From a virus, in the IMG/VR virus record IMGVR_UViG_3300025087_000259, positions 1 to 29,121 of that record: DNA of 29,121 bases, one strand, 5' to 3'. The position numbers and the translations under genes are program-made. The first letter of the stretch is position 1. Every line of letters begins with the position of its first letter. This document shows, one piece after another, positions 2,068 through 3,678 of this stretch. A model generated the notes under the pieces. It worked only from the letters and a program-made list of their open reading frames with translations. It had not been told where the DNA came from and searched no databases.

Positions 2068-3213
2068 TTAATTTATTGGTTTACCTCTACGCGTGATCGT
2101 GGACTTGCTCTTTGAGGCCATTTCGTTTGAATACTTTTCAAACTCTGGGATAGTCATTGCCGCGATTTCAGCCGCCGTCTTGAGGCGATCGTCTTGGGTT
2201 TCGCCCGAAGTTGATCCTCCCCGGCTATGTTCTGCTGATTTCTTTTTTTCCGGGACAAACAACGATCGCTTGAGAGTAAATAATTCTCCGAGTGGGACGC
2301 CAGCGTATCTCACGCCAGCTTCGCTATAAACAAAGCTTTGGATTTTGGCCTTAACTTCGTCCATAGTCAGTCCGCTATCGGCGACTATCTTTTTAACGTC
2401 CTCGTTATCGGCAATTTCGTGCTTAAACTCGTCGTTAAAGTGTTGAGTTTCGGTAGCAATAGTATCTTGCTCCTCTTTTTGAGCGGTTAATTCTGCCTCT
2501 CGCTTGTCAAACTTTTCCAATTTCTCGGTAAGTTCGGGCGATAACTGATTGCCGGAGGCAACCAACTGTTTCGCCGCTTCAAGGATAGATTTAACAACGC
2601 CCGGCTCAATCGCACCCTCGGCTTGCTCAACAATGGTATTAACCAGTTGCTCAAGCTTTTCTGCGGAGTTGTCTATCTTGGCTTTGGTATCCGGGGCCTT
2701 TCCGGAGCCGCTATTGATCTGCGTAGTTAATTTTTCAATCTGCTGTTTCAGCTCTGCGGTTTCAGTTTCAATTCGCTTTTCAAGCTCCTTGATCTGTCGC
2801 TTTTGAGCTACGATAAGAGTTTCCTTTGGATCGCCTATTGGCTTCTCCTCTGGCTTCTTACCGTTCTGCTGGCCGGCCTCCAAGTCCGCTTTCGCTTTCG
2901 CGTCAGCCTCCTCTTTGACCTTTTTATCTGCTTCTACTTTGGCCTCGTCAGCTTTGGATTTCTCCTCGGCTTCCTTTGCGGCTTTTTCGTCGTCAGATAA
3001 TTCGTCGTCGTCTGCGACCGGGGGCTTGTTGGCCTGTGGGTCTTTCTTTTCAAACGGCAACTTATGTCCCTCTGCTTCTAATTTCTCGGCTATCTGCTGG
3101 GTTTCCAGATCAGGATAGCGCGGATCAGTAGCAGGGGTCATTTTTATACTTTCCATATCCTTTGAAGCAACGTCGGATATAAAACGCCAAATATCATTTG
3201 ACGGTTGATACAT
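2068..3213 (-). CDS. Capsid scaffolding protein
   Basis: 381 residues, highly charged and Glu/Lys/Ala-rich, immediately upstream of the major capsid gene, the usual place for a scaffold. Residues 60-110 are a Lys/Glu/Ala low-complexity helix, residues 135-165 a coiled coil (QKRQIKELEKRIETETAEL), and the C-terminal 60 residues are basic (SKSTITRRGKPIN), a typical coat-binding end. It would form the internal core that directs coat assembly and is later lost. The ATG at 3213 has no ribosome site; the in-frame ATG at 3156 has AAAGGA only 1-2 nt away, so the true start is unsure. Its leader is exceptional: 237 nt with a pseudoknot, a terminator and a hairpin, suggesting that entry into scaffold and capsid genes is regulated. 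Confidence 0.75.
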   Translation of the reverse strand: MYQPSNDIWRFISDVASKDMESIKMTPATDPRYPDLETQQIAEKLEAEGHKLPFEKKDPQANKPPVADDDELSDDEKAAKEAEEKSKADEAKVEADKKVKEEADAKAKADLEAGQQNGKKPEEKPIGDPKETLIVAQKRQIKELEKRIETETAELKQQIEKLTTQINSGSGKAPDTKAKIDNSAEKLEQLVNTIVEQAEGAIEPGVVKSILEAAKQLVASGNQLSPELTEKLEKFDKREAELTAQKEEQDTIATETQHFNDEFKHEIADNEDVKKIVADSGLTMDEVKAKIQSFVYSEAGVRYAGVPLGELFTLKRSLFVPEKKKSAEHSRGGSTSGETQDDRLKTAAEIAAMTIPEFEKYSNEMASKSKSTITRRGKPIN

Positions 3214-3303: not shown

Positions 3304-3328
3304 AAAAAAGAGGTCTGTTAGAACCTCT
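3304..3328 (-). terminator. Intrinsic terminator inside the scaffold/capsid leader
   Basis: On the minus-strand RNA, AGAGGU (3328-3323) pairs with ACCUCU (3314-3309) around an 8-nt loop and is followed at once by five more U residues (3308-3304). This is a compact Rho-independent terminator. It lies between the gene at 3451 and the scaffold start at 3213. Its 5' arm (3324-3328) is also the 3' end of the 12-bp stem of the upstream pseudoknot element, so the terminator and that stem cannot coexist. This suggests conditional termination (attenuation) rather than a plain operon end. Confidence 0.7.
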
Positions 3329-3426
3329 CCTTTGGCCCCCAATAGATCGCGCGCACGGCCTGTTGGGGGACTCGGAATGGGGCGGTAAAGCACCAAAAGA
3401 GAGGCCCTAACTAATTGCGCGCGATC
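3324..3426 (-). promoter_or_regulatory. Pseudoknotted leader RNA, candidate attenuator or riboswitch for head genes
   Basis: Reading the minus-strand RNA 5' to 3': PKa GAUCGCGCGCA (3426-3416); linker of 11 nt; P1 5' arm CCUCUCUUUUGG (3404-3393); junction of 23 nt (3392-3370); P2 5' arm CCCCCAA (3369-3363); loop containing PKb UGCGCGCGAUC (3355-3345); P2 3' arm UUGGGGG (3342-3336); P1 3' arm CCAAAGGAGAGG (3335-3324). P1 is 12 bp with one U-G, P2 is 7 bp stacked directly on P1, and PKa/PKb is a perfect 11-bp pseudoknot. The last five bases of P1 are the first arm of the terminator at 3304-3328. No open frame explains this 237-nt gap. I do not recognise a known riboswitch class. Confidence 0.65.
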
Positions 3427-3450: not shown

Positions 3451-3678
3451 CTACTTAACTATTGCTCTATCGGCTGGACGTTTTGAGATAAACCCTGCGG
3501 CTTTCGCTTTCGCGTCTTTGCCGGTGTAAGTGCGTGTCTGTCCGCCCTCAAAACTAACAACAACACCCTTGCCGACTTTTTCCTCGTCAGCTTCGTCTGC
3601 GGCGGCTTCGTCCTCCGCTTTCTTAGCGGCCGCTTCTGCGGCGGCGGCTTTCTGTTCCTCTGTTAATGCTTTTGTCAT
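3451..3678 (-). CDS. Small acidic Ala-rich protein of the head operon, unknown
   Basis: 75 residues. Residues 5-35 are an Ala/Glu/Asp-rich helix; the C-terminal half (VVVSFEGGQTRTYTGKDAKAKA) looks like a small beta domain with a basic tail ending RPADRAIVK. It sits between a 66-residue gene and the scaffold leader. Small proteins at this place can be head-maturation, decoration or scaffold-assisting proteins, but no family is recognised. The ATG at 3678 follows an AT-rich region with a TATAAT hexamer at 3690-3695 and no clear Shine-Dalgarno. It is the last gene before the attenuator, so it would be transcribed even when the scaffold and capsid genes are not. Confidence 0.6.
   Translation of the reverse strand: MTKALTEEQKAAAAEAAAKKAEDEAAADEADEEKVGKGVVVSFEGGQTRTYTGKDAKAKAAGFISKRPADRAIVK

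Follow-up and report, generated by a model that had tools for sequence, protein, structure and literature searches.

A leader RNA with a loop-to-upstream pseudoknot and a shared terminator strand: a candidate attenuator preceding scaffold and capsid genes of uncultured phages

H-type pseudoknots form the basis of the SAM-II, preQ1 and fluoride riboswitches, in which a short linker crosses a groove and an expression platform is coupled to the fold. Attenuator leaders are likewise an established kind of regulatory RNA, represented by trp-type leaders and the rplJL L10(L12)4 leader of B. subtilis. Among phage leader RNAs that bear on termination, HK022 put is ~70 nt long, consists of two stem-loops, and binds RNA polymerase at the β′ zinc-binding domain. 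It is found downstream of early promoters, exerts a processive effect that spans kilobases, and has no strand in common with a terminator (PMC9378689). Here we describe a leader of roughly 120 bases located just upstream of phage shell genes; its kind, an attenuator leader, is known, and its class appears to be new. No family in Rfam 15 (riboswitches included) matched it at the gathering cut-off, and the best sub-threshold match in the window was at chance level, in agreement with an earlier note on this DNA that had assigned the leader to no known class. No described counterpart was found in the open-access literature.

The window, i.e., the whole analyzed stretch of 29,121 nucleotides of viral DNA from an IMG/VR contig, carries on its minus strand, in this order, TerS, a methyltransferase, TerL, a portal-sized ORF, small ORFs, the leader, a 381-aa ORF (2068-3213), and the major capsid gene (797-2002; phrog_267, 4e-29). 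By position, the portal-sized ORF is taken as portal and the 381-aa ORF as scaffold; the latter had no PHROG or Pfam match above cut-off, and is homologous to positions 2933-3955 of L007, a contig whose capsid is 61% identical. The ORF preceding the leader (75 aa, 3451-3678) is also homologous to its counterpart in L007. The location ahead of scaffold and capsid genes was upheld. An identical stretch is present in IMGVR_UViG_3300025009_000248, the only contig matched by the exact DNA pattern of the leader, and a sequence search among named phages matched nothing. Relatives were viral contigs collected through capsid and terminase protein homology. A Patescibacteria MAG contig contains one TerL relative, and KSB1 and Verrucomicrobia bins contain others, so that these point to no single host.

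All helices named in the earlier note, and the terminator, are present letter for letter on the minus strand. The upstream strand PKa, GATCGCGCGCA (3426-3416), begins 24 nt past the stop codon of the preceding ORF and is the exact 11-bp complement of PKb, TGCGCGCGATC (3355-3345). The P2 stem pairs CCCCCAA (3369-3363) with TTGGGGG (3342-3336); PKb lies in its loop, separated from the 5′ strand by a 7-nt linker (3362-3356) and from the 3′ strand by 2 nt. Directly after P2 comes the 3′ strand of P1 (3335-3317). The P1 core, CCTCTCTTTTGG (3404-3393) with CCAAAGGAGAGG (3335-3324), is exact as a 12-bp stem with one G-U pair; however, unbroken pairing between 3411-3392 and 3336-3317 brings it to 19-20 bp, of which three or four are G-U pairs. 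The intrinsic terminator (3330-3304) consists of 5′ arm GGAGAGGU (3330-3323), loop (3322-3315), 3′ arm ACCUCUUU (3314-3307), and a U run (3309-3304). An overlap of five bases between P1 and the terminator had been proposed. The overlap is real; however, because P1 runs to 19-20 bp, it takes in all of the terminator 5′ arm as well as 6 of the 8 loop bases. P1 and the terminator share this strand and are mutually exclusive, as had been claimed. A small hairpin, GAGGGT/ACCCTC (3249-3231), was seen by eye between the terminator and the scaffold start, and in many relatives as well.

The minimum free energy (MFE) of 3440-3304 was -52.6 kcal/mol (z = -3.8), and none of 200 shuffles was equally low; in the MFE fold, the PK strand and the 3′ strand of P2 form part of an alternative extended helix. 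When shuffling was confined to the 35 bases upstream and the stem was left unchanged, the PKa match exceeded chance at p ~0.0005. The full topology score of the window (-72.7) was the best over ~1.95 Mb covering both strands of the relatives.

The architecture recurred at the same place in relatives with different letters, which supports its reading as a conserved structured leader. In these relatives, identified by protein homology, PKa stands directly before a long hairpin, PKb in the apical loop is a perfect 9-14 nt complement of PKa, and the 3′ base of the hairpin also serves an intrinsic terminator as its 5′ arm. Long stems of 20-30 bp were found in nearly all members. L007 has all four parts in the window's order with other letters: PKa AAAGTGTAAC, P1 GGCTCTCTCTTG/CAAGGGAGAGCC, P2 TTCGATG/CATCGAA, and PKb GTTACACTTT inside the P2 loop. 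Its terminator (GCCGC-TGAAAA-GCGGC-TTTCT) draws on the end of the P1 3′ strand and, by eye, its P1 continues beyond a mismatch (TTCAG/CTGAA) and, like that of the window, extends into the terminator loop. Alternative pairings are conserved between relatives, as expected of an attenuator.

A scan of 499 non-redundant intergenic segments for the order PKa-P1a-P2a-PKb-P2b-P1b, with P1b overlapping an intrinsic terminator, gave 15 segments with score ≤ -40 vs. 0.02 expected from 100 dinucleotide shuffles per segment, with search parameters set after inspection of the window and L007 and modeled on these two. The opposite strands of these segments gave one. One of the 15 (L179) has a doubtful register, and its leader still scores in the looser test described below. 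Fourteen of the 15 elements directly precede the scaffold gene, and that of L120 is in the same block, three genes farther upstream; an automatic tally gave 12 (p = 7e-10) because L127 and L152 had been entered under duplicate names. In the looser test, which scores pseudoknot plus stem, 48 non-redundant leaders from a single scaffold family were evaluated and 22 of them reached p ≤ 0.01 (0.5 expected), the best-scoring pseudoknot sometimes differing from the hand-checked one (L034, L093, L176, L188, L181, L218). L004, a 41% capsid relative, also scored in this test. Within one clade, the scaffold and capsid ORFs that follow the element are homologues of one another; the window, L007 and L034, as well as L057, have other capsids. 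At these numbers, and at a homologous position, a chance origin of the inverted repeats in a GC-rich intergenic region can practically be dismissed despite the few full-length homologues of the exact window sequence, since recurrence is far beyond shuffled expectation and the architecture of the homologues already refutes it.

The earlier note had named homologous leaders lacking both P1 and the terminator, or lacking covariation, as evidence against the element. The outcome was favorable for many homologues; however, a good part lack the element, namely L131-L135 (72-80% capsid identity to L034), L112 and L115. Its absence from capsid relatives as close as L131-L135 indicates that it is not essential. 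No such element was seen in the leaders of L003, L010, L011, L020 and others. Six named or annotated phages with related capsids or TerL (Roseobacter CRP-345, Pelagibacter HTVC103P, vir515, Microcystis MaAM05, and two Manatee Spring phages) had no shared-terminator element in the stretches checked.

Several other features were observed in relatives. Related scaffold leaders of L112 (2318-2474), L123 (589-758), L129 (1303-1443) and L193 contain a chain of competing hairpins (GCCTC..GAGGC, AGGCCTGA/TCAGGCCT, GGCCTTACGGAAGGCC) with no U run. In L072 (5328-5440), L060 (7101-7189) and L084 (5096-5181), a hairpin with loop-to-upstream pairing and no recognized terminator precedes other genes, and is perhaps a translational or processed form of the same design. 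In L118 (2620-2665), L120 (1310-1346 and 2600-2627) and L116 (2650-2695), a small hairpin is followed by GTAAAAY or similar and a start codon; such leader-end hairpins also precede other genes of the same phage in the L093/L120 clade, and are possibly a translation-start or stability signal. The helix GGACGCC/GGCGTCC of L116-L119 was considered as P1 and rejected, since comparison with L120 identified it as the pseudoknot. An HNH-endonuclease-like ORF (by eye) lies antisense within the scaffold leader of L003 (4408-4815, minus strand). A group I intron was found at 3087-3382 of L026 (Rfam RF00028, 51.5 bits); the capsid match there starts only at residue 88, and the intron therefore probably interrupts the capsid gene. 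Capsid matches also begin near residue 78-97 in the L093/L120 relatives L125, L123, L126-L128, L169-L172 and L188-L194, and the gap in L125 (3091-3341) is group I intron-like by eye and below the Rfam cut-off. In Manatee Spring phage L139 (MW202566.1, 5695-7646), which has a related terminase, mhsp60 and groeL chaperonin annotations adjoin the packaging genes.

Covariation was evaluated in two homologous trios. In a MAFFT alignment of L178, L182 and L181 (67-70% alike), 10 pairs had changed on both sides vs. 5.0 in shuffles (1 of 500); when the partners were slid as a control, 1-4 such pairs were found. When shortened PKa-linker-PKb strings were aligned to assess the pseudoknot by itself, these three sequences showed compensation in 4 of 9 pairs and no broken pair. 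In the second trio (L195/L146/L147), the pseudoknot was invariant and covariation elsewhere was not above shuffles.

The geometry of 17 elements was evaluated with the stem folded and PKb kept open. Each formed a single hairpin of 21-38 bp (median 26 bp). The linker between PKa and P1 was 0-14 nt (median 2), that between the 5′ strand and PKb (L2′) had a median of 4 nt and was U-rich (34 of 58 bases), and that between PKb and the 3′ strand (L3′) was 0-3 nt (median 0). The L2′ and L3′ lengths would fit stacking of the loop helix onto the 3′ strand while the linker crosses the deep groove. Simultaneous formation of P1, P2 and the pseudoknot, as the earlier note had drawn it, was rejected: PKa is tethered too near the foot of P1, and the coaxial span was out of reach in 17 of 17 elements (nearest L007, 93 of 95 Å). 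With the pseudoknot folded back along the stem, the span was still impossible in 11 of 17. Because PKa is tethered a median of 2 nt from P1, the pseudoknot and the complete hairpin should exclude each other; the pseudoknot and the apical hairpin pairs may coexist. These linker lengths also imply the logic proposed previously, in which the pseudoknot without P1 leads to the terminator and P1/P2 leads to read-through. An HDV-like ribozyme topology, in which the partner strand comes after P3, was rejected, the partner strand here lying inside the P2 loop.

Nested equilibrium folding by transcript length, a model type that cannot score a pseudoknot, was performed for the 17 elements. The probability of PKa/PKb pairing was ~1 once PKb was transcribed, and P1 reached 0.88-1.0 in 16 of 17 once its 3′ strand was transcribed (0.31 in L120). 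On addition of the terminator 3′ arm, the window, L152, L120 and L057 reverted to pseudoknot plus terminator (the terminator entry of the window is 0 in this analysis because scoring was restricted to a trimmed 5-bp register; the MFE fold does contain the terminator). At full length, most members stayed with the hairpin, i.e., the antiterminator. In many members, the energies of the two alternatives were often within a few kcal/mol. Since the full-length equilibrium mostly favors the antiterminator, termination needs kinetics or a factor.

We consider it reasonably probable that the leader is a cis-acting attenuator that controls passage of RNA polymerase into the scaffold and capsid genes. 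PKa and PKb would pair as soon as PKb is transcribed; apical hairpin pairs may stack on this helix, given an L3′ of 0-3 nt, and the short U-rich strand would cross it, giving an H-type pseudoknot. While the pseudoknot stands, PKa would be tied 0-14 nt from P1, which would be unable to close, so that its free 3′ strand would pair with the terminator 3′ arm and transcription would stop. If PKa/PKb were blocked, melted or outpaced through polymerase pausing, P2 and then P1 would zip up, and the resulting hairpin of 21-38 bp would take in the terminator 5′ arm and allow transcription of scaffold and capsid genes. As trigger, we favor either kinetics, through the speed or pausing of polymerase, or a phage protein that acts on the pseudoknot. 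As judged from sequence and comparison, the architecture itself is well supported, and the predicted helices, the shared terminator, the conserved position, the covariation in one homologous group and the linker lengths are established. We infer which fold is ON, the order of events, and the actual use of switching.

A protein-bound attenuator, in which scaffold, capsid or another phage protein stabilizes one fold through the pseudoknot or apical loop and the head genes are autoregulated, would be the same switch with its trigger specified; it is unlikely but deserves consideration. The position of 14 of 15 elements directly before the scaffold gene would suit it, and, the full-length equilibrium often being the antiterminator, the OFF state would need a pseudoknot stabilizer; the logic is known from the B. 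subtilis L10(L12)4 leader (PMC4538822). However, the loop and pseudoknot letters are unrelated between elements despite homologous scaffolds in one clade, and a conserved binding site is not visible.

It is rather improbable that the element is a passive device, in which a partial terminator is combined with a long hairpin for mRNA protection or processing (an RNase III-like substrate), with no regulated switching. The long hairpin alone, with no U run, in L008 and L016 and the 20-30 bp stems of nearly all members point in that direction; this reading leaves unexplained the recurrent perfect complementarity of PKa and PKb (compensated in one trio) and the doubling of the P1 3′ strand as terminator 5′ arm.

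Translation-coupled attenuation of the trp type, in which a ribosome finishing the preceding ORF governs PKa pairing, drew attention because, in 16 of 17 elements, PKa starts 12-24 nt past the stop codon of the preceding ORF. However, the footprint of a terminating ribosome extends only ~10-11 nt past the stop. PKa lies just beyond it and the spacing therefore looks like insulation rather than sensing, which makes such coupling quite improbable. A trans-acting or multimeric RNA, through PKa-PKb kissing between molecules or with the terminated ~120-nt RNA as product, is less probable again: a PKa at the foot of a hairpin with its complement in the loop suits chain or ring formation, but neither the shared terminator strand nor the site directly before the scaffold gene would be explained.

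Shell proteins are needed in hundreds per portal, and not too early. A cis-acting attenuator at this position would probably be an on/off control of shell-gene expression that has not been described before. Somewhat more tentatively, and at a little under even chances, it may represent a new RNA-switch class of a large uncultured phage group, defined by architecture rather than sequence, in which a loop-to-foot pseudoknot sterically bars the antiterminator. Such a switch would set the timing or the dose of scaffold and capsid transcription and would be read by kinetics or by a factor that the phage encodes. If so, it would be a compact RNA-only switch and a regulatory class that sequence-based searches miss, as the element is found in different capsid lineages while hardly any of its letters are conserved. 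The tether-length lock is a design open to direct test in vitro.

The earlier note had left open a put-like antiterminator and a riboswitch. Like HK022 putRNA, the leader is a phage RNA bearing on termination; however, it is one long hairpin with loop-to-upstream pairing. Put-like processive antitermination is disfavored, because put has two stem-loops and no shared terminator strand (PMC9378689). Like the H-type riboswitches, the leader combines a pseudoknot, a short linker across a groove and an expression platform. In contrast to them, no conserved aptamer nucleotides were seen in it save the U-rich linker, its pseudoknot excludes the base of the stem and closes no ligand pocket, and no metabolic gene lies downstream. 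A metabolite riboswitch is not favored, because only the short L2′ linker is alike among elements and no conserved unpaired core was seen. The trp-type and B. subtilis rplJL L10(L12)4 leaders (the latter in PMC4538822) share with this leader three mutually exclusive pairings in series (1:3, 2:4, 4:5) and an intrinsic terminator that shares a strand with the antiterminator. In contrast to these leaders, the present element precedes phage scaffold and capsid genes, had no leader peptide that was seen, lacks sequence conservation, and uses as anti-antiterminator a loop-to-upstream pseudoknot pairing of mostly 9-14 perfect bp.
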